Under the pieces are notes generated by a model, which was not told the origin of the DNA, did not search any database, and worked only from the letters and a program-made list of their open reading frames with translations. This document shows, in pieces, positions 6,420 to 31,329 of a DNA stretch of 32,139 nt. The translations under genes and the position numbers were made by a program. Positions within the stretch are counted from its first letter, which is position 1. The number at the start of each line of letters is the position of its first letter. Origin of the DNA: an uncultured Burkholderiales bacterium. Lineage in GTDB: Bacteria; Pseudomonadota; Gammaproteobacteria; Burkholderiales; Burkholderiaceae_C. Where the stretch lies: NCBI GenBank assembly GCA_903933115.1, contig CAIZIT010000069.1, forward strand, positions 1 through 32,139, given 5' to 3'.

Positions 6420-6874
6420 GACAAGTCCCTTTCGGTTTTTTGGTTTTCACTCCTCGTATCGGGAGTGTCTATACAACGCCTGATTCGCCGCAGGTGTTGA
6501 CGCATAAATAAAAATATTCATGTCAACTTTTAAGGCGCTCTCGCGTTAATCGGCATGGTCAAGAAATGTAAGCCAAGCTTTAGATCATTCTATGGATGCT
6601 TGCCATTACCATCGATTACTACTTCAAGCGGTGACCGGGTCTTTAAAAACCCAGATGAATTTGAGCTCTTGCCAAGGGTGAAGGCTCGTTCCTCAAGGAC
6701 CACCCTGGGGGCTTGAGCGTTCAGGCAGGCATGGCCGTGAGCTGCAGAGCTCTTCTAAAGACCCCTAAGAGGACGTGGCCATGTCGATTGATGGCACTAG
6801 AATAGAGAAATTCCTTGTTTTCACGGCCTTGCCCAATTCCTGAATTTGCAGGAGATCTCCACATTCACATTGTT
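6420..6874. other. Intergenic region upstream of the molybdenum hydroxylase genes
   Basis: This stretch is about 455 bp and presumably holds promoters for the small exported protein (leftward) and the hydroxylase operon (rightward). Short inverted sequences are visible, such as GGGTCTTTAAAAACCC near 6637 and TCCTG-N6-CAGGA at 6838-6853 just before the start codon. None is strong enough to name. I see no RNA gene or credible small reading frame. Confidence 0.4.
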
Positions 6875-7354
6875 ATGAAAATAGACCTCACGATCAATCA
6901 AACGCCTCACTCATTCGAGGTGGAGCCCAGAACATTGCTTGTCGATTTGTTGCGCGACACCTGTCATTTGACCGGCACGCATGTGGGTTGCGACACGTCC
7001 CAATGCGGTTGCTGCACCGTTTTAAAAGATGGCGTCTCCATCAAGTCTTGTACCACTTTGGCGGCTCAAGCCGATTCTTGTGCCATCACCACCATCGAGG
7101 GCTTGGCTCAAGGTGAGCTCCATCCTGTTCAAGTGGCCTTTGCCCAGTGTCATGCTTTGCAGTGCGGTTTTTGTACGCCAGGCATGATCATGTCGAGCGT
7201 GGACTTGTTACAAAAGAACCCCAACCCCAGTGATGAGGAGATCATGGAGGCCCTTGAAGGCAATTTGTGCCGTTGTACGGGTTATGTCAACATTGTGGCG
7301 GCCGTGCGCCAAGCCGCTCAGCAGATGCAAAAGCGCGTTGGAGCTCCATCATGA
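6875..7354 (+). CDS. [2Fe-2S] small subunit of a molybdenum hydroxylase (XDH/CO dehydrogenase-like)
   Basis: The 159-residue protein carries both iron-sulfur signatures of CoxS-type subunits: the plant-ferredoxin motif [12 protein letters not shown] near residue 45, and the second cluster motif CGFCTPGM followed by LCRCTGY. It passes electrons from the molybdenum site of the large subunit to a downstream acceptor. The ATG at 6875 fits the normal family N-terminus (MKIDLTINQ). No well-spaced ribosome site is visible; the AGGAG at 6850 is about 20 bases away. The stop overlaps the start of the large subunit by 4 bp (ATGA), showing translational coupling. Confidence 0.95.
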
Positions 7355-9675
7355 GTCAACAGCCATACGTTACCCAGGGCTTTGCCAGACAAGAGGATTT
7401 GCACCTCATCACGGGTCGGGGTCAATTCACCTCCGATTATTACTACCCGGGGATGCTTCACTTGCAGGTGATTCGATCCGTCCATGCCCACGCCAAGATC
7501 ACTGCACTCGACTTGAGCGCGGTCCAATCGGCGCCAGGTGTACGCTTGGTGTTGACCCACGCCGATTTGCTCAAAGAGGGTGCACAAGACTTGCCCCACG
7601 CTGTGACGCTCACCTCCATCACGGGTGAGCCACAAAGGATCAACAAGATGCCCATCTTGGCCAAGGACAAGGTGCATTTTGTAGGTCAACCCATTGCCTT
7701 CGTTATTGCAGAGACTGCGCTTCAAGCCCAGGATGCGGCGGAATTGGCCGTGATGGAGTTTGAGGTTTTGGAGGCGTGTGCCGATGTGGCCTCCACTTTG
7801 AAGGAAGGGGCGCCTCTTTTACATGACAACATGTCCAGCAATGTCTCTTGTGTGTTCTCTGCTGGGGACGCACAGAGCGTTCAAGCGGCGTTTGCCAAGG
7901 CTCGGCATGTGAGCGAGGTGAAGGTCAACAGCCAGCGCTTGATCGGTTTTCCCATGGAGCCCAGAGCCGTGGTTGCGCGCTACGATGCATCATCAGGTCA
8001 AACCACCATTCACACCCCCTCTCAGGGGCTTTTGAGTATTCAAGGCTATTTGAGTCAAACCACGGGTTTGAAGCCTGAGCAAATGCACATCGTGACCCAA
8101 GATGTGGGGGGCTCTTTTGGCCTCAGAACTGCAGCCTACAGTGAGCACGTGGGGGTCGTGATCGCCAGTCGTTTGCTCGGTCATGCGGTCAAATGGGTCG
8201 GCACTCGTTCCGAGGTGTTTTTAAGCGATTGGCACGGCCGAGCACTCACCTTGAATGGGCGCATTGCACTGGACGAAGAGGGGCATATTTTGGCCATTCG
8301 CTTTGACGATGAGGTGGACGTGGGGGCGTACAACTGCTACATGTCTTCTTTCATCGGCTCCAGAAACCTATCGGTCACGATGGGTGGGGTGTACAAGGTG
8401 CCTGCTCTTTATATGCAAAGCACCATCGTCTATACCAATACCGTCCCCACGTCCGCTTACCGAGGTGCAGGGCGCCCAGATATTGCTTATGCAGTGGAGC
8501 GCTTGGTCGACTTTGCTGCGCATGAGCACGGTTTCGATCCGATCGAAATCCGGAGAAAGAATTTCATTGCCTTGGCCGACTTTCCCTACAAGACGGCCAA
8601 TGGCACCCTCTACGATACGTGTGACTTCAACCAGGTTTTGGACAAAGCCCTGGAGGTGTCTGATTACTCGGGCTTTGAGGGCCGGCGGGCACAGTCCGAG
8701 GCCCGGGGCCAATTGAGGGGTTTGGGGCTATCGACCTACCTTGAAGCCTCTGGCGCGGGGAATGTTCAAAAAGATCAAGTGGATGGCCAATTCACGCCCG
8801 AGGGTGTCTTGGTGATCTCTGGCGTCACGGGGGCCTCTGGTCAGGGTCACGAGACCTCCTTTGCGCAAATCGTTGAAAACGAGCTGGGCCTGTCTGCCTC
8901 TCAGGTCAAGTACCAAGCTGGGGTTCATGGCTTGGCCCTGATTGGCAACGGGACGGGTGGCTCCAGAACGCTTTACGGGGCAGGCAGTGCTGTCAAGAAT
9001 TTGTGCGCGAACATTCGTGCCCAATTGCAATTGGCTTTGGCCACGCAGTGGTCTTGTTCGCCCGAAGAAGTCTTCTTCAAAGAGGGGCTTTGGTGCAGAG
9101 AAGGTGCGCCCAGCAGCACTTGGGCCCCTGTCTCTACGGCCCAAGTCTTGGCCACTTTGCCCCAAGATGCGCTTCTTGCACTGAGTGGCATTGGGGAGGC
9201 CCAGTCGGGTGCCACCTATCCCAATGGATGCCATGTGGCTGAGATTGAAATTGATCCCCAAACGGGTGAGGTTCAAATCCTCAACTACGTCTGTGTCGAT
9301 GAGCTGGGCACCGTCATTTCTCCTCAATTGGTCCAAGGCCAGGTGCATGGAGGCGTGATCCAAGGGTTTGGCCAAGCTTTTTGTGAAGAGGTGGTCTACG
9401 ACGCACAGGGGCAGTTGTTGAGTGGCTCCTTGATGGATTACGCACTGCCAAGAGCTGGGGGCTTGCCCGCCATCAAAAATCAGACCTTGGAAGTGCAGAC
9501 CTCCTTGAATTTGTTGGGGGCCAAGGGCGTTGGGGAGTCAGGTTGCACAGGCTCTTTGCCAGCCTTGGCCAATGCCGTGATGAGCGCTTTGAGGCCTTTT
9601 GGCATCGACCGCATGGACATGCCTTTCACGCCCATGAAAATTTGGACGGCCTTGCACAACGCCAAGTCGCGCTGA
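7351..9675 (+). CDS. Molybdopterin-binding large subunit of a molybdenum hydroxylase (form II CoxL-like)
   Basis: This 774-residue subunit binds the molybdenum-cytosine-dinucleotide-type cofactor and hydroxylates or oxidises the substrate. It has the N-terminal hammerhead domain ([10 protein letters not shown]) and the cofactor motif [10 protein letters not shown]. It also has [11 protein letters not shown], the AYRGAGR signature of form II CoxL, which lacks the CYS-containing loop of true CO dehydrogenase. A C-terminal GAKGVGESG carries the catalytic Glu. It is therefore not expected to oxidise CO; aldehydes, N-heterocycles or other aromatics are more likely. No FAD (medium) subunit follows, so electrons may go to a cytochrome or a distant partner, as in IorAB-like enzymes. 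The substrate is unknown. Confidence 0.95.
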
Positions 9676-16035: not shown

Positions 16036-17211
16036 TTAAATTGTTTTGAGCTTGGGCATGATTCTCAAGGCATTGTCCCGGTCGATGGCCATGCGCTCTG
16101 CGGGCGTGAAGTTGCGCGCGCCCAAGCCCTCTCGGACCTCTTGGCCCTTGCGGTACGGAAAGTCACTGCCGAACATGATCTGAGAGGTGGGGATGAGCGC
16201 TCTGAGGGCTGCAATGGCACCCTCATGATGACCTTGAGCGGTGTCGTAGTGAAAGCGCTGAACTTCGGCCAAGACGCCATTGGGGAGCACTTCACGCGCT
16301 TTTTCTTTCATGTCCACTTCTTGGCGAGTGAAACGACTCCATAAAAAGGGCATCGTGCCACCGCTGTGAGACCAAATCCATTTGATGTTGGGGAATTTGT
16401 TGGCCGCACCGCCAAAGAGCATGCTGGCAATGGTTCGTGTGGTGTCTGTGGCGTACTCAATCGCAGAAGGGGGGATTTCTGGGAAAGGGTTTTTGCAGCA
16501 TGCAGGCATCAAGGGGTGAACATAAATGGCAGCACCTCTTCTGTTCAATTCTTCCCAAATGGGCCAAAAGTGCTTGTCGCCCAAATATTTTTGACCATAG
16601 GAAGTCATGAGGCCAATGCCATCGGCTTTCAGGGTGTCCATGGCGTATTCGATTTCCTTCAAGCTGCCTTGAACGTCCATCAAAGGCAAGGTGGCAAAGG
16701 AGCCAAAACGACCGGGATAGGTTTGAACCATCTTGGCCACGTATTCATTGGACTCTCTGGACAAGCGACGATCGAGTTGAACATCGTCAAAATAGGCGCC
16801 GGGTTGGATCAACGCCACCACTGAAGTGGCAATGCCATTGGCATCCATGTCTTCAAGCGAAGCTTGGGGGCTCCACTTGGGTGCGATCACGCCCTCGCGG
16901 TCTTTCACCGCATTGATGTAGGCGGGTGGGACCACGTGATGGTGGATGTCGATGCGGTGGGGCTTGGTGGCAGAGGCTGCGCTTTGGGCGTTGGCGTTGT
17001 CCATGCCGGCCCATAAAAGTGAGCCAGCAGCGCCCATGCCGCCTACACCACCGACGCCCGCAGCAACGCTGGCCAGTCCACCCAGGCCAGATAAGAAACC
17101 TCTCCTGGCGTTGTCAACATGGGCGCTCACGCCGTTGGTGATGCCCCTGCCTTTGGTGAAAAGATGACTAGAGTGGTCTTGCCCTTGGCAGGCACAGGAA
17201 AAAAGTTTCAT
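16036..17211 (-). CDS. Tat-exported amidohydrolase (ACMSD/decarboxylase-type amidohydrolase-2)
   Basis: The 391-residue protein begins at 17211 behind an AAGGAG ribosome site. A Cys/His-bearing leader (MKLFSCACQGQDHSSH) comes first, then a twin-arginine signal (NARRGFLSGLGG, R36-R37) with a long Gly/Ala hydrophobic stretch cleaved near NANAQS. The mature part is an amidohydrolase-2 barrel: HxH metal motif at H90/H92 (RIDIHHHV), YVHPLM, WSHSGGTMPF and GSDFPY with the catalytic Asp. Family members are metal-dependent decarboxylases or hydrolases of carboxylated aromatics and related acids. Export to the periplasm as a folded metalloenzyme is inferred. It is the last gene of a minus-strand Bug receptor, SnoaL-like and amidohydrolase group. 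Confidence 0.92.
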   Translation of the reverse strand: MKLFSCACQGQDHSSHLFTKGRGITNGVSAHVDNARRGFLSGLGGLASVAAGVGGVGGMGAAGSLLWAGMDNANAQSAASATKPHRIDIHHHVVPPAYINAVKDREGVIAPKWSPQASLEDMDANGIATSVVALIQPGAYFDDVQLDRRLSRESNEYVAKMVQTYPGRFGSFATLPLMDVQGSLKEIEYAMDTLKADGIGLMTSYGQKYLGDKHFWPIWEELNRRGAAIYVHPLMPACCKNPFPEIPPSAIEYATDTTRTIASMLFGGAANKFPNIKWIWSHSGGTMPFLWSRFTRQEVDMKEKAREVLPNGVLAEVQRFHYDTAQGHHEGAIAALRALIPTSQIMFGSDFPYRKGQEVREGLGARNFTPAERMAIDRDNALRIMPKLKTI

Positions 17212-18053: not shown

Positions 18054-19118
18054 TTATTCGGGGACGATGCCTGCTTGCTTTAAAAGCTGGGTCCATTTGC
18101 TCACTTCGCTCTTGATGAAAGCGTCCGTCTCTGAGGTGCTCATCTGTAAAATGCGACCACTGCCTTGCTGCAGTCTGGTGCGCACCTCTGGGTTGCTCAT
18201 GGCTTTATCGATTTCTGAGCGAAGTTTCTCCACAATGGGCATGGGGGTCTTTGCCGGTACAAACCAGCCAAACCATGTCTCCATCTCCAAATCCATGGCT
18301 CCCGTTTCTTTCAAAGTGGGAATGCTTGGCGCATCTGGCGCACGCATGCGACTCGAGACGGCGATGCCCTTGACTTGGCCTGCCTCCAAATAAGAACGTG
18401 TGGTGGTGGAGTTGTCGAAAAACAAATCCACGCGACCTGCGATCAAGTCCATGTAAACGGGTTGAGCGCCTTTGTAGGGCACTTGAAGGATGTCCACATT
18501 GCCAAGACTGCGCAAAAGGGTGGCCAAGATGAATTGACCTGAGCCTGGACCGCTCGAGCCAATGTTGAGTTTGCCAGGATTGGCCTTGGCATAGGTCAAA
18601 AGATCCTTGAGGTTATTGGCCGGCAAGCTCTTGGTGCCCACCAAGGTGTAGGAGTGGCTCACCACCAATCTCAAGGGGATGAAGTCGTTGATGGGATCGT
18701 AGCCGGGTTGTTTATAAAGCCCCATGTTCAGGGCCATGTTGGACAAACCGCCCACCAAAATGTGGTATCCGTCTGCAGGAGATTTGGCAATCGTTTGGGT
18801 CCCCACCAAGGTGCCACTCCCCGGTTTGTTCTCCACCACAAATTGCTGCCCCATTTGCTCTGAGAGCTTAACACCCAGCACGCGTCCCACCAAATCAAAG
18901 CCGCCACCCGCTGTCGAGGGCGCCACCACTTGAATGGGTTTGTTGGGGTAACTGCTCGGCGACTGAGCAAAGCTCAGGCAAGAACCCATGAGCAAGATGC
19001 AAAGCCCCAAGGGGCCTTTTTTGAAAGCATTCTTGAGGCGGTTTTTAAAGTTCTTTTGGCGCTCCAAAGGCTGTGTTTGAGGTGAAGAGGGGACGTGAAA
19101 TGGGGGGGAGAAAAGCAT
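18054..19118 (-). CDS. Bug-family (TctC) periplasmic solute receptor 1
   Basis: This is a solute-binding protein of the tripartite-tricarboxylate-transporter receptor family. The mature part starts SYPNKPIQVVAPSTAGGGFDLVGR, with VVENKPGSGTLVGTQTIAKSPADGYHIL and LQVPYKGAQPVYMDLIAGRVDLFF, which are the family hallmarks. It is expected to bind a carboxylate through the Asp-bearing loop in the periplasm. The signal peptide is KGPLGLCILLMGSCLSFAQ. About 35 residues precede it if the ATG at 19118 is used, so the true start may be later and non-ATG; the frame is open back to 19157. No TctA/TctB membrane genes accompany it. It heads the group with the SnoaL-like and amidohydrolase genes. Confidence 0.93.
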   Translation of the reverse strand: MLFSPPFHVPSSPQTQPLERQKNFKNRLKNAFKKGPLGLCILLMGSCLSFAQSPSSYPNKPIQVVAPSTAGGGFDLVGRVLGVKLSEQMGQQFVVENKPGSGTLVGTQTIAKSPADGYHILVGGLSNMALNMGLYKQPGYDPINDFIPLRLVVSHSYTLVGTKSLPANNLKDLLTYAKANPGKLNIGSSGPGSGQFILATLLRSLGNVDILQVPYKGAQPVYMDLIAGRVDLFFDNSTTTRSYLEAGQVKGIAVSSRMRAPDAPSIPTLKETGAMDLEMETWFGWFVPAKTPMPIVEKLRSEIDKAMSNPEVRTRLQQGSGRILQMSTSETDAFIKSEVSKWTQLLKQAGIVPE

Positions 19119-19626
19119 AGATGGGCTGATCAAAAGCTTAGAAGCTTCAAAGTACAAGGTGTCAAAAAGAGAAGTCAGCGAGTCTTGCTGTGCAAAGCTT
19201 CAAGAGCGTGACTCTTTGTAAAGACCGATGATCTTGAGGGCGTCCATCGTTCAAGCTTTGTGTGGCAAGTTTCAAAGACCCCTATTGAACCTCAAATTCC
19301 AAATCGAAGGATAAGGGTTAACGCTAGACAAAAAGTACGACTTGCTGAACTGGGTTGAAGGACTTTGTGAGCGTTCATCATCAGAGCAGAAAGGGTATTG
19401 GATCTTGTCAAACCCACGTCTAGGTTGGATCCAATGGCGGATTCGTTTTGAAAGTAAGTCGTGTTGCCCATAACTTCCTTGGGGCACTGAGCACTTGGCT
19501 AGGGTAAATGCGTGTGGTCAAGGCGAGAGAAGTTGTTTAAATTCAGCGCAGTGAGCAAAGTGAGTGAGGACTGATCAATTCAGTCTGTAAGCTCATCAAT
19601 CCCTAATTTTCAGCAGGAAGTGCACG
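19119..19626. other. Divergent promoter region between Bug receptor 1 and the ThDP enzyme
   Basis: These 508 bp must hold the promoters of two divergent catabolic transcripts. TTGGATCCAA, a 10-bp palindrome, lies at 19425-19434, with a related ATTGGATC at 19398-19405. A second inverted repeat lies at 19569-19585. No regulator gene or RNA gene is present. Confidence 0.5.
19569..19585. promoter_or_regulatory. Inverted repeat upstream of the ThDP enzyme gene
   Basis: GACTGA-N5-TCAGTC lies 41 bp before the ThDP enzyme start codon. The half-site GACTGA/TCAGTC is the same as in the inverted repeat upstream of the aminotransferase gene at 10077-10101, in the opposite arrangement. Confidence 0.35.
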
Positions 19627-21651
19627 ATGCAAGAGTCCAAAAAACAATCCCAACAACCCTCTCAGCAAGAGCTTGATCCACAAGAAGCCCCTGTTCTTGC
19701 AAGACGAAAATTTTTAAACAGCGTGGTCGCCAGTGGTGCTGTAGGCGTCATGGGTGCAACGGCATCGGGTGCTTCACAAGCTGCAGACAAAGCGCCCCTG
19801 GAGCCCAAGAAGCCCTCTGCTTTACCCCCTTCAGGACACGGCATTCAAAATGAAAGTGGCATGCCTCCAGATCTGGGTGGTCGTGTTCATGGCAAAGCCG
19901 GCTCTGATTTCATGGTCGATGTGATCAAGACATTGGACATCAAGTACATTCCCTCCAACTGCGCATCCAGTTTCAGAGCGATTCATGAGTCTTTGATCGA
20001 TTATGGTCAAAACGTCATGCCCGAGTACATCAGTTGTATGCATGAAGAGTCGGGCGTTGCCATGGCACACGGATACTTCAAGGCGTCTGGTAAGCCTTTG
20101 ATGTCGCTTTGTCACGGCACGGTGGGCCTCCAGCATGCCACCATGGCCATGTACAACGCTTGGTGTGATCGTGTGCCGGTGATTGTCGTCGGCGGCAACG
20201 ACACCGATGCAGCCTTCCGTCCTCCAGGCGTGCCCACCTTCCACTCAGCGCAAGACATTTGCGCCATTGTGCGTGACTACACCAAATGGGACGATGCCCC
20301 TGTCTCGTTGCAGCATTTTGCGCAGTCCATGGTGAGAGGCTACAAAATCGCGATGACGCCTCCCTTTGGGCCGGTTGCATTTTCTTTGGATGCGGCTTTG
20401 CAAGCGGAGCCCGTGAAAGAAAAGGGTGGCTTCATGCCCACCATTCCTCGCTACATACCCAGCACCCCCCCACAGGGCGACTCGGGTGCGGTGAAGGAAG
20501 CGGCCCGTTTACTGGCCCAAGCTCAAAATCCAGTCATCGTCGTCGATCGCAGTGCCAGAACACCCAAAGGCATCGGCCTCTTGGTGGAATTGGCAGAGCT
20601 TTTACAAGCCCGTGTGGTCGATCAGGGCAGTCGTATGAATTTCCCTAGAACCCATTACTTGAACAGCCCTGCATCCGTCATCTCGGGTGCAGATGTGATT
20701 TTGGGATTGGAATTGTCTGACTTTTGGGCCACTGTCAATCAATACACCGATAACGGTTTGCACGAAGGCACGGGCACTCAGGTCTCCAAAGTCAAACCCG
20801 GTACCAAACTCATCAGCATCAATGCGGCGGAGTTGATCACCAAGGCCAACTATCAAGATTTCCAGCGCTACCAAGAAATTGATGTCTCGATGCCTGCAGA
20901 TGCTGAGGCCACGATGCCCGCCTTGATAGAAGCCTTGAAGTCGGCCATTCAAAATGACAAAAAGGATCTGATCGCCAAGCGCGCTGAGAATGCGAAAAAG
21001 GCCTATGCGGAGGAGTGGGCCAAGACCCAGGCCCAAGCTGCGGTGGCTTGGAACGCAAGCCCCATCAGCACAGCCAGATTGTCCATGGAGATTTATCACG
21101 CGGTCAAGCACTTGGATTGGTCGCTGGTGGCCTCTGAAGGCAATGTGAGCAACTGGCCCAATCGTTTGTGGCCTTTTGAGAAACATTACCAGTGGTTGGG
21201 TCGATCAGGAGGTTATGGTGTTGGATATGGAGCGCCAGCCTCTGTCGGTGCGGCCTTGGCCAACCGAGATGCGGGTCGTTTTTCTGTGAGCATCCAGTCC
21301 GATGGTGACTTGATGTTCGCACCTGGTGTGCTCTGGACTGCTGCCCACCACAAGATCCCGCTTTTATCGGTCATGCACAACAACCGCGGCTACCATCAAG
21401 AGGTCATGCATTTGCAAAGGTTGGCCAATTTTAGAAATAGAAAGGTCAACAACGGCAACGACATGGGACCCATTGGAACCAGTATCCAAAACCCAGACAT
21501 CGAGTACCACAAATTGGCAGAATCCATGGGCTGGTGGGCCAAGGGACCCATCAAGCGACCCGAGGACTTGGGGCCTGCACTGAGAGAGGCGGTAGAGGTG
21601 GTGAAGTCTGGCCATCCAGCGCTTTTGAACGTATGGACACAACCCAGATAA
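19627..21651 (+). CDS. Tat-exported thiamine-diphosphate-dependent enzyme (acetolactate synthase/decarboxylase superfamily)
   Basis: The 674-residue protein begins behind an AGGAAG ribosome site. It carries a twin-arginine signal (ARRKFLNSVVASGAVG, R26-R27; cleavage near ASQA). The rest is a complete three-domain ThDP enzyme. The PYR domain has the cofactor-activating Glu in HEESGVAMAHGYF (E140). A central domain follows (AQNPVIVVDRSAR). The PP domain has the Mg-ThDP motif SDGDLMF (D559) and HNNRGY (N585/N586) 25 residues on. The superfamily decarboxylates 2-keto acids and either releases aldehydes, joins them or oxidises them. Export of such an enzyme is unusual. The next gene encodes a cytochrome c, which suggests an oxidase-type reaction. 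The substrate is unknown. Confidence 0.93.
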   Translation: MQESKKQSQQPSQQELDPQEAPVLARRKFLNSVVASGAVGVMGATASGASQAADKAPLEPKKPSALPPSGHGIQNESGMPPDLGGRVHGKAGSDFMVDVIKTLDIKYIPSNCASSFRAIHESLIDYGQNVMPEYISCMHEESGVAMAHGYFKASGKPLMSLCHGTVGLQHATMAMYNAWCDRVPVIVVGGNDTDAAFRPPGVPTFHSAQDICAIVRDYTKWDDAPVSLQHFAQSMVRGYKIAMTPPFGPVAFSLDAALQAEPVKEKGGFMPTIPRYIPSTPPQGDSGAVKEAARLLAQAQNPVIVVDRSARTPKGIGLLVELAELLQARVVDQGSRMNFPRTHYLNSPASVISGADVILGLELSDFWATVNQYTDNGLHEGTGTQVSKVKPGTKLISINAAELITKANYQDFQRYQEIDVSMPADAEATMPALIEALKSAIQNDKKDLIAKRAENAKKAYAEEWAKTQAQAAVAWNASPISTARLSMEIYHAVKHLDWSLVASEGNVSNWPNRLWPFEKHYQWLGRSGGYGVGYGAPASVGAALANRDAGRFSVSIQSDGDLMFAPGVLWTAAHHKIPLLSVMHNNRGYHQEVMHLQRLANFRNRKVNNGNDMGPIGTSIQNPDIEYHKLAESMGWWAKGPIKRPEDLGPALREAVEVVKSGHPALLNVWTQPR

Positions 21652-21679
21652 AGCAACAAAGCCATTGAAGGAATCAGTG

Positions 21680-22042
21680 ATGAACATCTCTATTAAAAAA
21701 ATCAAATCCGTTGTGCTTCAGGTGGGTGCTTTGGCACTTTTGTCAGTGGCCCAGCATGCGCTTGCTGCGAACGCTCAAGACGGCCAAGCCGCGTTCATGA
21801 AAAATGGTTGCTGGCAATGTCATGGCACGCAAGGCCAAGGCGGTATTGCAGGTCTCAAATTGGCCCCCAACCCCAAGCCCTTGGCTTATTTGAACGCCTT
21901 CATTCGAAACACGGTGGGTCCCATGCCACCTTATTCCGAGAAAATCCTCTCGGCTGAGGATTTGGCCAACATCCATGCTTATTTAGAGAGCATCCCTGCC
22001 TCCCCAGATCCCAAAACCTTACCGCTCTTGCAAGTCAAGTGA
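21680..22042 (+). CDS. Small exported mono-heme cytochrome c
   Basis: The 120-residue protein starts 28 bp after the ThDP enzyme stop, with GAAGGA as ribosome site. A Sec signal (VVLQVGALALLSVAQHALA) is followed by a class I cytochrome c domain. CWQCH (C44, C47, H48) is the heme site. A Met in GPMPPYSEKILS is the probable sixth ligand, and the end is the usual helix (LSAEDLANIHAYLESIP). It would carry electrons in the periplasm. Its position directly behind a periplasmic ThDP enzyme suggests it is that enzyme's electron acceptor (inference). Confidence 0.95.
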   Translation: MNISIKKIKSVVLQVGALALLSVAQHALAANAQDGQAAFMKNGCWQCHGTQGQGGIAGLKLAPNPKPLAYLNAFIRNTVGPMPPYSEKILSAEDLANIHAYLESIPASPDPKTLPLLQVK

Positions 22043-22224
22043 ACAAGTGCTGACGCGGTAGCCCAAGGTCAAAGCCGGATCAACAAGGTGAGCAGGGTGA
22101 AGAAAGTGAGTTGATTCGGTGAGCATTTTTAAAACTTTCCCTTTTCCACAGGCAGGGTTCTCTGCTTAGACGTGAAGGGGGTCAATCGTTACTTCGATCA
22201 AAAATGAGGGAGGGAACTGACTCA

Positions 22225-23196
22225 ATGGTGTTGAAACAATCATGCTTTGGCTTCCTTTTCCTCTTCATCGCTTGTGCATTCGCCAGCATGAGCTCGGCTC
22301 AAACCTACCCCAGCAAGACCCTCAAAGTGTTGGTGGGTTTTGCGCCTGGAAGTGGACCCGATTTGCAAGCCCATGCGGTGTCTCAACAACTCGCTCTTCA
22401 ATTGGGTCAAGCCGTCATCATTGAAAACAAAGTGGGCGCCAATGGAACCATTGCTGCAAGAAGCGTAGCGCAGTCCAACCCCGATGGCTATACGCTGTTG
22501 TTCTCAAGCTCCTCCATTGCCTCCACCCCTTACGTATACAAGAATCCTGGTTTTGATTTGTTGAAGGATTTGCGAGCGGTCGCCAGTGTGGGTATTTTGG
22601 ATGGTTTGCTGGTCTTGGTGAATGCCAAGTCGCCCATTGCCAATCTGGGTGATTTGATTGAAAAGGCTAAAAAAGAGCGGGTCATGTATGGCTCACCAGG
22701 GGTGGGCAACATCATTCACTTGGCCAGCGAGTCCATCAATTTGAATGCGGGCATTGGTATGGAGCACATCCCCTACAAAGGGGCTTCGGAGGTGATGACG
22801 GGCTTATTGAGCGACAGCATCCAAGTCATGGTTGCGACTCCTCCCTCAGTGCTGAATTTGGTCTTAGAGGGAAAGGTTCGAGCCATTGCCTTCACGGGGA
22901 GTAAGAAGTTTGCACCTTTGCCGGAGGTTCCACTTTTGAAAGATGCTTTCCCTGGATTTGAGCCGATTGGCTCTTGGGGGATATTTTTTGTCCCGAGCAA
23001 AACACCCAACGACGTCGTGGATCGGCTCAATGCCGCTGTAAGAGAGTCCATCAAGATCAATGCTGTCTCTGCGTTGCTCCAAAGAGATGGTTATTTTCCA
23101 GATCATAAAAATGCGCAAGACATCAACGCATTTTTTAAAAATGAAGTATTGAGAATGAAGGAGCCCTTCAGGGCTGCAAAGATAGAACCCCTGTGA
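22225..23196 (+). CDS. Bug-family (TctC) periplasmic solute receptor 2
   Basis: The 323-residue receptor has signal peptide CFGFLFLFIACAFASMSSAQ, then TYPSKTLKVLVGFAPGSGPD, VIIENKVGANGTIAARSVAQSNPDGYTLLF and HIPYKGASEVMTGLLSDSIQVM, all hallmarks of the family. The start at 22225 is chosen because GGGAGGG lies about 10 bp before it; ATG 22204 is in frame but overlaps that site. It follows the cytochrome gene by 182 bp and may share its operon. It probably delivers the substrate or product of the periplasmic enzymes to a membrane carrier encoded elsewhere. Confidence 0.93.
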   Translation: MVLKQSCFGFLFLFIACAFASMSSAQTYPSKTLKVLVGFAPGSGPDLQAHAVSQQLALQLGQAVIIENKVGANGTIAARSVAQSNPDGYTLLFSSSSIASTPYVYKNPGFDLLKDLRAVASVGILDGLLVLVNAKSPIANLGDLIEKAKKERVMYGSPGVGNIIHLASESINLNAGIGMEHIPYKGASEVMTGLLSDSIQVMVATPPSVLNLVLEGKVRAIAFTGSKKFAPLPEVPLLKDAFPGFEPIGSWGIFFVPSKTPNDVVDRLNAAVRESIKINAVSALLQRDGYFPDHKNAQDINAFFKNEVLRMKEPFRAAKIEPL

Positions 23197-25657: not shown

Positions 25658-26500
25658 TCAATCCACGTGCTCCAAGAGCATGATGCCTCCTGCCGTGTTG
25701 GAGATGGGGACGTGATAAGTCGATGCAATGGTTTTGACATGCCCCCCAAGAGCAGCTCTGGCTGCCAGCCACATGATGAGTTCAATGCCCTGGGTACCCA
25801 CCTCCTCAACGAGCTCGTGGTTGGTGAATTGTGTGGCCCAAGCGGGGTGGGTGATCATGCTCTGCATGAAGGTCTGATCAAATTTTTTATTGATGAATCC
25901 TGCTCTTTTTCCATCCAATTGGTGCGAGAGTCCACCTGTACCCAAGATCAAGAACTTCAAGTCCGAGTCCATGGATTGGATGATTTCACCCACGGCTTTG
26001 CCAAGTTGATAGCACCGACTTGCACTGGGCAGTGGGAATTGAACGGTGTTGATGCAAATGGGGATGGTGATGACGGGACAGCTGGCCTCATCGGGCCAAA
26101 GCAGCTTCAAGGGAAGGGTGAAAGCATGATCAACTTTCATTTTTTGGCAGGAGGTGATGTCGAACTCTCTTTGTACCAGGCCTTCGATGATTTTCCAAGA
26201 AAGACCTGCATCACCCTTGAAGGACGGCAGAGTGGGTATGCCCCAGCCCTCATCTTCATTGGTGTACTCGTTGGCCGCGCCTACTGAAAAAGTTGGCATG
26301 GTGTCCAAAAAGAAATTGAGGCCATGGTCGTTGTAGAAAACGACGACCACATCGGGTCGATGATCCTTCAGCCATGCATGTATCGGATCAAAGCCATTGA
26401 AAAAGGGTGCCCAGTATTCATTGTGATGCACGTTTTTGGCAATCGCGTTCCCAATCGAAGGAACGTGCGAAGTGGTGACCATGCCCATGATTTCAGCCAT
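25658..26500 (-). CDS. ligB: Extradiol dioxygenase beta (catalytic) subunit, protocatechuate 4,5-dioxygenase LigB type
   Basis: This 280-residue class III extradiol dioxygenase subunit holds the Fe(II) site. H12 (TTSHVP), H59 (YNDHG) and E240 (TQGIELIMW) are the expected iron ligands, and H193 (GGLSHQLDG) and H125 (KVDHAF) the acid-base residues. Length and motifs fit LigB/PmdB. With LigA it opens the ring of protocatechuate or a related catechol between C4 and C5. The ATG overlaps the ligA stop by 1 base (TAATG), so translation is coupled. The other meta-cleavage genes (ligC, ligI, ligJ, ligK) are not in the window. Confidence 0.95.
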   Translation of the reverse strand: MAEIMGMVTTSHVPSIGNAIAKNVHHNEYWAPFFNGFDPIHAWLKDHRPDVVVVFYNDHGLNFFLDTMPTFSVGAANEYTNEDEGWGIPTLPSFKGDAGLSWKIIEGLVQREFDITSCQKMKVDHAFTLPLKLLWPDEASCPVITIPICINTVQFPLPSASRCYQLGKAVGEIIQSMDSDLKFLILGTGGLSHQLDGKRAGFINKKFDQTFMQSMITHPAWATQFTNHELVEEVGTQGIELIMWLAARAALGGHVKTIASTYHVPISNTAGGIMLLEHVD

Positions 26501-26844
26501 TATGCTCTCCCTGCTTCTTGCAATTTATTACAAAATGCTTCGCGGCTCATGCCTGTTTGGAGTGCGCCCAGATCTTGGACATCCAGGCCCAATATGCCCG
26601 CAAATTTTGCCAAGTAGTAGACGTTTCCCCCTTCTTCAATCAAGCCCAGCACATTCCTTTGGGTGATGGCTCGTTTTTGTGCTGGGGTCAACCCAAAGCG
26701 ATCCATGTAAGCATCCTCATGGGCTTTGAAATCGAGTCGGTTGTCAAGGGCGTTGAATGAGAAACACATCTTGTTCAGTGCGTAACCCTTTTGGGCTTGT
26801 TCCCCGTCAAAGAGGGTGGTTCCAAAAATGTCATTGTTTTTCAT
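26500..26844 (-). CDS. ligA: Extradiol dioxygenase alpha subunit, LigA type
   Basis: The 114-residue small subunit is all-helical, with the LigA core: MCFSFNALDNRLDFKAHEDAYM, FGLTPAQKRAITQRN, LGLIEEGGNVYYLAKFAGILG and GMSREAF. It covers the active site of LigB in the alpha2-beta2 enzyme. ATG 26844 is the likely start (TTG 26850 is in frame), but no good ribosome site precedes it. The promoter region is shared with the divergent hemerythrin-like gene and contains a perfect FNR-type box 70 bp upstream. Confidence 0.94.
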   Translation of the reverse strand: MKNNDIFGTTLFDGEQAQKGYALNKMCFSFNALDNRLDFKAHEDAYMDRFGLTPAQKRAITQRNVLGLIEEGGNVYYLAKFAGILGLDVQDLGALQTGMSREAFCNKLQEAGRA

Positions 26845-26905
26845 GATCAAGAACTTGAATGGGAGTCCAACATGAGGCCATCTTAAGACTTTGACTTTTT
26901 ATCGG

Positions 26906-28882: not shown

Positions 28883-30217
28883 TCAATAAGTCGTTTTGTT
28901 GATTTGACCGCTTGAGGTGACAAACCATCGCTCACTGGGGAAGGTTTTGCCTTGGAATTGTGACAAGATCCACTCTGCCACTAAGGTGCCTGGGTTGGGG
29001 CCAAGGTAGGCGGCGGGGACGTTGCCCACCGAGTGGCGAGAGTCTTGATAGACCACCAGTCTCTTGGGGCCTCGCAGGGTCTTCATGAGCCGCTCGGTGT
29101 TCTCTAGGGGTGAGAGTTCGTCCGCCTCACCGGCCAAGCACAAGTAGGGCTGCTTGATGTTGACGGTGTGGCCCTCCCAGGTCATGGTTTTTCTGAAGGT
29201 GTCGAATTTCGCCTCATCGGTGAAGCCAGACATGTACATGAAGCGCATCTTGAAGGTGGGCGAGGCTTCTTCAAAAATGGTGTGAAAACCGGGTTCATGA
29301 CAAACCGAGGTGACAGCGACAGCACCGATCCTGGGCTCATGTGCGGCCGCAATGGTCGAGAAGAAGGAGCCAAAACTGCCCCCAGCAATCGCAATTTTCT
29401 TGCTGTCAATTTCTGCGCGTTGGCTGAGCCAGTCAACGCATGCTGTGCCTGTTGCCATCCACGCTTGCATGGAGAAATGAATGCCCAAAACCGCCGATTC
29501 GTATTGCCCCGGACCATCCAAATTGAGCACCGCCATGCCCCGGGTCAAGTACTTGTCGCCGTAGAGGAAGGTGCCAATTTCTTTGAAACTGTCCATGCCG
29601 GGGATGTTGATCACCACTGGGATTTTGCCTCCCTTGTAATCGGCCGGCAGGTGCAGCCAAGCGGGAAGGGATTTGCCGCCTAGAGAAGCGGGCAAAGGGA
29701 TCCAGACCTCTTCGACCTTGTGGTCTGCAAGACGGGCATATTCTTGATAGCACTCGCGCTTGCGTTGGTTGTAGAACTTGTTTTGTTCGTTGTTTTCATC
29801 GATGGGCCACTGGGCTGCTCCCCAGTGGACCGATGCAATGAAGAAATTGTCCCGAGCATTGACAACTTCGCCGCCCGCCTGGGCCGCCTTGGCTTGCATC
29901 TCCCGTCGCCTGGCCTGAGCCTCAAAGGCGGGAGCCGCATCGGCGTATTTTTGAATTCTCTGGCGCACCATCATGAAGTCTCCGGCAGCGGCGGGTCCAC
30001 AAGGTGCAGAGAGGTACAGGGAGCGAGGTTGATCCCAGTCCATCCCCACTGCGCGAATGGTGTTGTCCAGGGTCCAGCGTTGCTCGGTCCATCTCTTGGT
30101 CAAAGGTCCCGCGTGCGAAGAGTCTGCATGGGCAGCGCTCTGAGCCAGACCGGCACCGGCAACAAGTGCTGTGGCGCTGTGTAAAAAGCTTCGACGTTGA
30201 TGGAGACTTGGTGACAT
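28883..30217 (-). CDS. Tat-exported alpha/beta hydrolase (2,6-dihydroxypseudooxynicotine hydrolase / FrsA-like)
   Basis: The 444-residue protein starts at 30217 behind AAAGGA; an upstream ATG at 30265 would place the Tat motif too far inside. The signal is SLHQRRSFLHSATALVAGAG (R8-R9), cleaved near AAHA. A helical N-terminal cap of about 150 residues is followed by an alpha/beta hydrolase core with nucleophile S281 in AGGSFGSF, an acid in GEADELSP and His in DSRHSVGN. The large N-terminal cap resembles C-C bond hydrolases such as 2,6-dihydroxypseudooxynicotine hydrolase (family knowledge). It could cleave esters or C-C bonds in the periplasm. Divergent Bug receptor 3 lies 131 bp away. Confidence 0.92.
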   Translation of the reverse strand: MSPSLHQRRSFLHSATALVAGAGLAQSAAHADSSHAGPLTKRWTEQRWTLDNTIRAVGMDWDQPRSLYLSAPCGPAAAGDFMMVRQRIQKYADAAPAFEAQARRREMQAKAAQAGGEVVNARDNFFIASVHWGAAQWPIDENNEQNKFYNQRKRECYQEYARLADHKVEEVWIPLPASLGGKSLPAWLHLPADYKGGKIPVVINIPGMDSFKEIGTFLYGDKYLTRGMAVLNLDGPGQYESAVLGIHFSMQAWMATGTACVDWLSQRAEIDSKKIAIAGGSFGSFFSTIAAAHEPRIGAVAVTSVCHEPGFHTIFEEASPTFKMRFMYMSGFTDEAKFDTFRKTMTWEGHTVNIKQPYLCLAGEADELSPLENTERLMKTLRGPKRLVVYQDSRHSVGNVPAAYLGPNPGTLVAEWILSQFQGKTFPSERWFVTSSGQINKTTY

Positions 30218-30348
30218 CTTGGGTTTCCTTTTAGGGGCATGGTTGGAGACGACGGGAAGAGGCAAAAGATCAATGTAATGTGAAATTCATTTGCGACATA
30301 ATGGGGTTTCCCTGAGTTTTCACCCCCTTTTTGAATTGGAATCCTGCC

Positions 30349-31329
30349 ATGAAGTCCAGCGCGTTGAAGTTTTTCTTGGGTTTGAGTGTGGGCCTCTTGG
30401 GCGCATGCTGCTCAAGCGCCACTTTTGCTCAAACTTGGCCCAACAAACCCATTGCTTTGGTGGTGACTTATCCTCCTGGCGGCACGGCCGATCTCATGGC
30501 GAGAGCGCTCTCGACACCTATGTCCCAGATCTTGGGCACGCCCGTGGTGGTGGAAAATAAGCCGGGTGCCTCAGGCCAGATCGCTGCGTCTTGGGTCGCC
30601 AAATCTGCACCCGACGGTTACACCATCATGCTTGACGCATCCTCCTTTGCGGTCAATCCCTCACTCTACCCCCATTTGCCATATCAGCCAGAGCGTGACT
30701 TTAAAACGTTGGGGATTTTGGCCCTGTACCCCAATGTCTTGTTGGTCCATCCAAACTTTCCGGTTCGCAGCGTCAAAGAGTTGGTGAGCTTGGCCAAAGC
30801 CAAGCCCAACACCATCTCCTTTGCCTCTTCGGGCAATGGTTCAGCTCAGCATTTAGCTGGGGTCTTGTTCACCCACAAAGCAAATATAGACATGCAGCAC
30901 GTGCCCTACAAGGGAGCAGGTCTTGCGTTGAACGATGTCATGGGCGGTCAAGTCCCTGTTTTTTTTGGCAGTGTGGGCTCAACGATGCAATACATCGAGT
31001 CGAAGAAGTTGTTGGCTCTGGCCGTCACCAGCAGCAAACGAGTGCCCAGTTTGCCCGATGTGCCCACCATGGTGGAGGGGGGCATTGCCAGCTATGAAAT
31101 CTACGAGTGGAACGCCTTGTTCGCTCCCAGCGCCACACCCAAGGACATCTTGCAAAAGTTAAGCGCTGCCATTGTCAAGGTGACCCAGCGAGAGGATTTT
31201 AAGGACCGAGTGAGCAAGTTGGGTGGGGAGATTTTTCAAGGGGACTCAGAGGTGGCTGAGCGCTTCATCAAAGCGCAAATGGTTCAATGGGCTTCACTCG
31301 CCAAGGAGAAGATTCTCCAAGTCGATTGA
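30349..31329 (+). CDS. Bug-family (TctC) periplasmic solute receptor 3
   Basis: The 326-residue receptor has signal peptide FFLGLSVGLLGACCSSATFAQ, then TWPNKPIALVVTYPPGGTADLMAR, VVVENKPGASGQIAASWVAKSAPDGYTIML and MQHVPYKGAGLALNDVMGGQVPVFF. The start is ATG 30349; a TTG at 30331 is in frame but less likely. It is divergent from the Tat-exported hydrolase. This pairing of a Bug receptor with a Tat-exported enzyme is also seen at 16-23 kb. No membrane subunits are encoded nearby. Confidence 0.94.
   Translation: MKSSALKFFLGLSVGLLGACCSSATFAQTWPNKPIALVVTYPPGGTADLMARALSTPMSQILGTPVVVENKPGASGQIAASWVAKSAPDGYTIMLDASSFAVNPSLYPHLPYQPERDFKTLGILALYPNVLLVHPNFPVRSVKELVSLAKAKPNTISFASSGNGSAQHLAGVLFTHKANIDMQHVPYKGAGLALNDVMGGQVPVFFGSVGSTMQYIESKKLLALAVTSSKRVPSLPDVPTMVEGGIASYEIYEWNALFAPSATPKDILQKLSAAIVKVTQREDFKDRVSKLGGEIFQGDSEVAERFIKAQMVQWASLAKEKILQVD

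Follow-up and report, generated by a model that had tools for sequence, protein, structure and literature searches.

Enzymes that depend on thiamine diphosphate (ThDP) are textbook cytoplasmic catalysts. Why, then, would one of them begin with a twin-arginine translocation (Tat) signal and be followed directly by the gene for a cytochrome c? The window analysed here, 32,139 nucleotides of contig CAIZIT010000069.1 from an uncultured Burkholderiales bacterium, raises this question with two such genes at positions 19627 to 22042. The answer we favour, with slightly more confidence than doubt, is that they encode a two-gene respiratory module, in which a periplasmic ThDP-dependent 2-oxo acid oxidoreductase would pass electrons to the co-encoded cytochrome. 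The features of the locus are as follows.

19627..21651, + strand: ThDP-dependent enzyme with a Tat signal, 674 amino acids, TPP_enzyme N, M and C domains (open reading frame, Pfam, AlphaFold2 model)
19627..19782, + strand: Tat-type signal peptide, about residues 1-52, with ARRKFLN and then an Ala/Val/Gly-rich stretch
20044..20046, + strand: codon of Glu140, catalytic glutamate, counterpart of Glu47 of benzoylformate decarboxylase (BFD) by alignment
20113..20115, + strand: codon of His163, aligned with BFD His70
21301..21384, + strand: ThDP/Mg2+ motif, D559-G560-D561 ... N585-N586
21394..21396, + strand: His590 of the enzyme, shortly after the NN motif
21652..21679, + strand: spacer of 28 bp, with a ribosome-binding-like GAAGGA ahead of the cytochrome start
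21680..22042, + strand: mono-haem cytochrome c, 120 amino acids, Sec-type signal judged by eye
21809..21823, + strand: haem-binding CWQCH, residues 44-48 of the cytochrome
21923..21925, + strand: Met82 of the cytochrome, in MPPY, probable axial haem ligand

A check of open reading frames and residues agreed with the sequence-only reading of this DNA in each particular, namely the frame at 19627-21651, R26-R27, E140, D559, N585/N586, the 28-bp gap and the CWQCH cytochrome. The enzyme stop codon lies at 21649-21651 and the cytochrome ATG at 21680, and nothing resembling a terminator turned up in a scan of the + strand of the interval.

Enzyme and cytochrome genes are paired across relatives

The search of the order recovered, besides the window, at least five relatives at 70-76% identity and at least one at 49%, together with many homologues at about 40% or less. 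A plasmid record of Caballeronia zhejiangensis annotates a thiamine pyrophosphate-binding protein and then a c-type cytochrome, and a Novosphingobium plasmid has the same gene order (enzyme identity 40-43%). A scan of GTDB species genomes gave at least 80 loci (the best 80) at 51-94% identity, from Comamonadaceae and other Burkholderiales, Hyphomicrobiales, Rhodospirillaceae, Acidobacteriota and others. After removal of five duplicates, the set held 83 non-redundant relatives that were 40-94% identical (six from the order, two from plasmids and 75 from GTDB), here called the clade relatives.

Conserved adjacency of the two genes had been set beforehand as a check that could refute the sequence-only reading. 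A CXXCH protein lies directly downstream, on the same strand and within 800 bp, in 77 of the 83 relatives, with one haem motif in 74 and two in three; the arrangement is absent in homologues outside the clade. The 74 single-motif pairs have a mean mutual identity of 54% and a median gap of 15 bp, with six gaps at or below zero (start codons picked by script). Among the remaining relatives, in L007 the cytochrome gene is adjacent but on the opposite strand, and the contigs of L095 and L103 end 2 and 147 bases past the enzyme. The pairing of the two genes is well supported by sequence comparison.

No CXXCHG protein of at least 80 residues was found beside the gene in the control loci L008-L030 (23 loci, about 30-40% identical); for 22 of these the sequence covered 0.7-1.5 kb downstream, and for L029 none. 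Nor did any of the eight controls L113, L114 and L117-L122 have a cytochrome; of these, L114 is the window genome's own paralogue, L117 lacks its 5' end and L118 coincides with L025. Seven early-starting, low-identity places (G052, G270, G284, G023, G148, G352 and G012) had neither a Tat motif ahead of the domain nor a cytochrome in the available stretch; the G052 gene runs off its contig, and in that genome no cytochrome of the family scored more than 27 bits. The annotated neighbours of three non-clade homologues are transporters, with a dehydrogenase or oxidoreductase in two.

The export signal marks the same enzymes

Tat and Sec signal features were judged by script and by eye. RRxF is present in all 81 clade relatives with a complete 5' end. 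Since the double arginine belonged to the search pattern used to find relatives, the informative facts are that the phenylalanine is constant and that no 5'-complete relative lacks the motif. The motif is followed by L in 73, M in five and I in three; the 20 residues following RR are free of acidic residues in 70 of the 81, and A-x-A occurs 14-45 residues beyond RR in 74. In an alignment of 55 rows, all picked from motif carriers, R26, R27 and F29 do not vary. In the window enzyme, cleavage near SGASQAAD is probable. The Tat signal that the sequence-only reading proposed is absent in homologues outside the clade, and by these comparisons the export signal of the clade enzymes is well supported.

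Could the motif instead be vestigial or misread, the enzyme cytoplasmic and the cytochrome an unrelated hitch-hiker? The known characterised members of this ThDP group are cytoplasmic, and the start codon is a predicted one. Yet RRxF is kept in 81 of 81 relatives while the residues surrounding it vary, homologues outside the clade start only about 10-35 residues before the enzyme domain, and motif and cytochrome both mark one clade, which makes this explanation very improbable. Genes for TatC, for cytochrome c assembly and for two haem-copper oxidases are present in the window genome, so the route proposed below is possible in this organism.

Two further enzymes of the window have Tat-like starts: an Amidohydro_2 protein at 16036-17211 on the - strand (ARRGFL, start judged by eye) and an alpha/beta-hydrolase-like protein at 28883-30265 on the - strand (QRRSFL, both judged by eye). 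The stretch as a whole may serve a periplasmic catabolic programme.

Signal and cytochrome probably on one branch

A quick tree of 113 rows was built with the signal region excluded, and it carried a long-branch warning that included L007, L031 and L032. In it, 84 rows form one group with SH-aLRT support of 100; 82 of these have the motif and two are 5'-truncated. Outside the group stand 29 rows, 28 of them with neither motif nor cytochrome. The other, L009, was considered as a case of Tat signal plus cytochrome outside the clade and rejected, as both marks were spurious matches outside the gene. L113, L119 and L120, with neither trait, sit just outside the clade in an unresolved fork. This tree, within its limits, would place the origin of both signal and cytochrome on one branch. 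Enzyme and cytochrome distances correlate over 74 pairs (r 0.76, with 0 of 2000 permutations as high), which is expected because the genes are adjacent.

In some Acidobacteriota the enzyme appears to have multiplied. Two exported enzymes stand in tandem ahead of one cytochrome in G764 and G765, and in one G766 enzyme copy the cytochrome starts 3 bp past the stop. When seven genomes were searched at E 1e-60, a limit that also admits non-exported homologues, five had more than one enzyme match, and those of L099 and L041 had one. Enzyme amplification with a common acceptor is what would be expected of a dehydrogenase-like family acting on several substrates. At the acidobacterial loci L134 3481-7771 and L138 13-3792, two clade enzymes lie in tandem and one cytochrome follows.

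The cytochrome c

Pfam assigns the window cytochrome to Cytochrome_CBB3/Cytochrom_C. C44, C47, H48 and M82 are invariant in 51 of 51 cytochrome rows, which gives the CXXCH and distal Met of a class I cytochrome c. By analogy with class I cytochromes c, Met82 is the probable axial haem ligand, which would give His/Met ligation.

A profile was built from 51 pair cytochromes, to which four of the seven positive order genomes supplied rows. At E 1e-18 it found the family in seven of the 399 order genomes, and these are exactly the ones with the exported enzyme, at adjacent places. When the limit was relaxed for 40 selected genomes, these seven scored 123-169 bits and the next best 42.7. In a phylum sample at a strict limit, two of 398 genomes passed, the window's own and one that reads as non-exported (L125). 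Within the order, then, the cytochrome family tracks the exported enzyme.

Enzyme family and active site

The window enzyme has the PYR and PP domains, catalytic Glu and Asp...Asn-Asn ThDP/Mg motif of DC/AHAS-like ThDP enzymes. TPP_enzyme_N and TPP_enzyme_C score above the Pfam cut-off and TPP_enzyme_M just below it (29.7 vs 30.4 bits). The enzyme domain starts near residue 90 of 674, and an AlphaFold2 model has a mean predicted local distance difference test (pLDDT) score of 79.6, with residues 1-88 below 50.

Which known enzyme it most resembles depends on the comparison. A family profile run against solved structures placed BFDs first (best 131 bits), followed by benzaldehyde lyase (BAL, 106 bits) and formolase. 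In phmmer the top matches of the window enzyme were BAL and formolase, and in Foldseek the model matched BAL best (about 21% identity), with 2-hydroxyacyl-CoA lyases, glyoxylate carboligase and BFD also found. Each NCBIfam score was below its cut-off: 211 vs 456 bits for the best match, the PRK08327 group (NF006203); 149 vs 493 for the BFD equivalog; and 67 vs 742, far below, for pyruvate oxidase. BFD has no flavin and pyruvate oxidase has one. From the BFD-like character of the enzyme and its low pyruvate oxidase score, the window enzyme is likely to be flavin-free.

The Glu140 column is E in 81 of 83 clade rows, with D in one and a gap in one truncated row. His163 is H in all 83 clade rows and in 25 of 25 rows outside the clade; BFD His70, with which it aligns, is an active-site residue. 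His590 is H in 81 of 83 clade rows and Phe or Tyr in homologues outside the clade, and this clade-specific residue could influence the form of the substrate pocket or the path of the electrons. Cys137 and Cys180 were considered as a disulphide adapted to the periplasm; the idea was dropped because these cysteines are as frequent outside the clade (21 and 23 of 25) as inside (74 and 81 of 84).

These comparisons also bear on an alternative with the same electron route and no release of CO2, in which the enzyme acts on an aldehyde, acyloin or 1,2-diketone and its Breslow intermediate is oxidised by the cytochrome, with BAL or cyclohexane-1,2-dione hydrolase as the model for the chemistry. BAL and formolase lead the phmmer matches and BAL the Foldseek matches, as this would predict, and BFD His281 has no constant counterpart. 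The family profile, however, ranks the best BFD over the best BAL, and the His70 counterpart is kept throughout the clade. We consider this alternative unlikely, a shade more so than the non-redox one discussed next.

Gene neighbourhood and substrate

Neighbours were counted in the 63 loci that exceed 9 kb, with the enzyme, the cytochrome and open reading frames presumed to be antisense artefacts left aside. The commonest clusters were Bug/TctC (26 loci) and Amidohydro_2 (12), followed by UbiD, SnoaL, molybdenum (Mo) hydroxylase-like and luciferase-like proteins with eight each (the last two named by eye). In the window itself an amidohydrolase and two TctC proteins lie nearby by Pfam. As no catabolic gene is constant, the enzyme and cytochrome probably function as a self-contained pair.

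This count bears on the proposal that the enzyme is an exported non-redox decarboxylase or lyase, which makes an aldehyde in the periplasm, while a different periplasmic oxidase or dehydrogenase, served by the cytochrome, burns it. The BFD/BAL-type fold and the lack of a recognised redox-cofactor domain suit this idea. So do a cluster in four of the 63 loci, whose one tested member is a pyrroloquinoline quinone-dependent alcohol dehydrogenase, and the Mo-hydroxylase-like small subunit, named by eye, in eight. But no oxidoreductase is constant beside the pair, whose commonest neighbour is Bug/TctC, and the cytochrome family tracks the enzyme across the order; we judge this proposal unlikely.

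For our favoured reading of a 2-oxo acid oxidoreductase, the neighbours offer some guidance on substrate. UbiD, the LigAB genes of the window, and 3-hydroxybenzoate 6-hydroxylase-like and 3-hydroxyphenylpropionate hydroxylase-like genes all belong to aromatic-acid metabolism and recur, so an aromatic 2-oxo acid of the benzoylformate type is a reasonable first guess, no more. UbiD/UbiX was rejected as a metabolic partner: the two occur in eight and six of the 63 loci, in two arrangements only, and are possibly ubiquinone-related (UbiX named by eye). A link to the mandelate pathway was likewise rejected. The aldehyde dehydrogenase of L033 and L036 has MdlD as its best NCBIfam match, but at 342 and 352 bits vs a cut-off of 550; against solved structures, benzaldehyde dehydrogenase was only the eleventh match of the L033 protein, and for the same cluster in L049 and L063 other subfamilies match best. 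The aldehyde dehydrogenase neighbour hints only weakly at an aryl substrate.

The window's four nearest relatives have a second ThDP gene, without a Tat signal, after the cytochrome; the window has none at that place. Its positions are:

L033 10611-12287: second ThDP gene
L034 10612-12288: second ThDP gene
L035 10620-12296: second ThDP gene
L036 10610-12286: second ThDP gene

The L033 protein is acetolactate-synthase-like and shares 21% identity with the window enzyme. In L049 the second ThDP gene encodes a non-exported homologue, the one such homologue compared with NCBIfam, whose best match there is the PRK08327 group (NF006203), at 230 bits, below the cut-off of 456.

Elsewhere in the window lie genes for Bug/TctC-type binding proteins at 18054-19157 (- strand), 22204-23196 (+ strand) and 30331-31329 (+ strand), two recognised by Pfam and the third by eye. 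Protocatechuate 4,5-dioxygenase-type LigB and LigA genes are at 25658-26500 and 26500-26850, both on the - strand. Small and large subunit genes, Mo-hydroxylase-like by eye, occupy 6815-9675 on the + strand, and their clusters recur in eight and seven of the 63 loci.

Proposed mechanism

In BFD, a 2-oxo acid and ThDP give CO2 and an enamine. One-electron oxidation of ThDP intermediates is known, with ferricyanide and with the Fe-S clusters of pyruvate:ferredoxin oxidoreductase. In the mechanism we propose, the enzyme would fold and load ThDP/Mg2+ in the cytoplasm and leave by Tat. In the periplasm it would attack a 2-oxo acid (of aryl type, for example benzoylformate, as a first guess) in a BFD-like active site, with release of CO2. 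The co-encoded His/Met cytochrome c would then oxidise the ThDP-bound carbanion/enamine in two steps, one electron at a time, the acyl-ThDP would be hydrolysed to a carboxylic acid, and the cytochrome would be reoxidised by one or other of the genome's two haem-copper oxidases.

The sequence-only reading had likewise proposed a periplasmic 2-keto acid oxidase or decarboxylase that passes electrons to cytochrome c. Its Tat signal and its gene pairing held up; its substrate and electron transfer are suggested by the resemblance to decarboxylases, the kept residues and the linkage. The sequences show the export signal, the strict pairing of the genes and the kept catalytic residues; actual export of the enzyme, a 2-oxo acid substrate and direct electron transfer without a flavin are what we infer.

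Several observations weigh against this reading. The neighbouring genes name no single substrate. No column matches BFD His281 consistently, the closest one being H in 25 of 83 rows in an alignment uncertain by a residue or two. Enzyme and cytochrome net charges are not markedly opposed, so that the idea of electrostatic complementarity has no clear signal. The search of the order, with two candidate places scored in each of 399 genomes, may have missed remote members. Lastly, three of the 81 enzymes with enough flank, L101, L104 and L105 of Acidobacteriota, have no cytochrome nearby. Their genomes hold two family cytochromes each elsewhere (107-145 bits), and three, two and four further enzyme genes with a match starting in the signal region (split matches joined by place). 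In favour of the reading, the L101 and L104 enzymes follow genes named by eye as oxidase-assembly genes, for haem A and haem O synthases and Sco-type proteins. In the genomes of L101 and L104, family cytochromes without an adjoining enzyme were also seen a few kb from an amidohydrolase-like gene (L133 5325-5657 and L137 5000-5338).

A wider claim would be that an extracytoplasmic ThDP family sends electrons from the carbanion/enamine straight to c-type haem, without a flavin, Fe-S or lipoyl relay, as an additional way to oxidise ThDP intermediates and a new periplasmic entry to respiration, with several paralogues in some Acidobacteriota, perhaps for different acids. We advance it tentatively, with rather more doubt than confidence.

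If the proposal is true, bacteria can carry out the oxidation of 2-oxo acids or aldehydes in the periplasm, with no need for a transporter or NAD(P), and haem can be reduced directly by an organic ThDP intermediate. Genes whose only annotation, in one record, is thiamine pyrophosphate-binding protein and c-type cytochrome would gain a function. Freshwater and soil bacteria appear to be among the carriers of relatives; two of the hosts, Limnohabitans sp. 15K and Caballeronia zhejiangensis, appear to be cultured strains, so the system is open to experiment.

Comparison with known systems

The sequence-only reading had called the route one it did not know as described, and we found no precedent either: among the matches listed from the open-access literature, in which subscription journals are mostly missing and preprints are outside the scope, there was no description of an exported ThDP enzyme or of a ThDP enzyme-cytochrome c pair.

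BFD (MdlC) is cytoplasmic and non-oxidative. It gave the best profile matches among solved structures and shares the Glu47 and His70 counterparts and the ThDP motif, whereas a constant His281 is lacking here and the window enzyme falls below the NCBIfam BFD cut-off. BAL and formolase, cytoplasmic lyases/carboligases without an electron acceptor, are the top phmmer matches, and BAL the top Foldseek match, although its identity is only about 21%. The PRK08327 group (NF006203) is the best NCBIfam match of both the window enzyme and the non-exported L049 homologue, but the window enzyme lies below its cut-off and homologues outside the clade have neither Tat signal nor cytochrome. PoxB and pyruvate:ferredoxin oxidoreductase pass the electrons of ThDP intermediates to respiratory or Fe-S acceptors through flavin adenine dinucleotide or Fe-S relays, in the cytoplasm or on the inner side of the membrane; the window enzyme is far under the pyruvate oxidase cut-off.

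Periplasmic oxidation of organic acids with cytochrome c as acceptor has been described, and was named extracytoplasmic respiration by its authors (PMC12294151). According to the abstract, that enzyme requires Zn2+ and acts on D-malate, D-2-hydroxyglutarate and D-lactate (PMC12294151). It resembles our proposal in location, in oxidising an organic acid and in its acceptor, and differs in its Zn2+ and in that the abstract mentions no ThDP (PMC12294151). In a combination for which we found no description, the window pair would join a known fold to a known style of periplasmic respiration.

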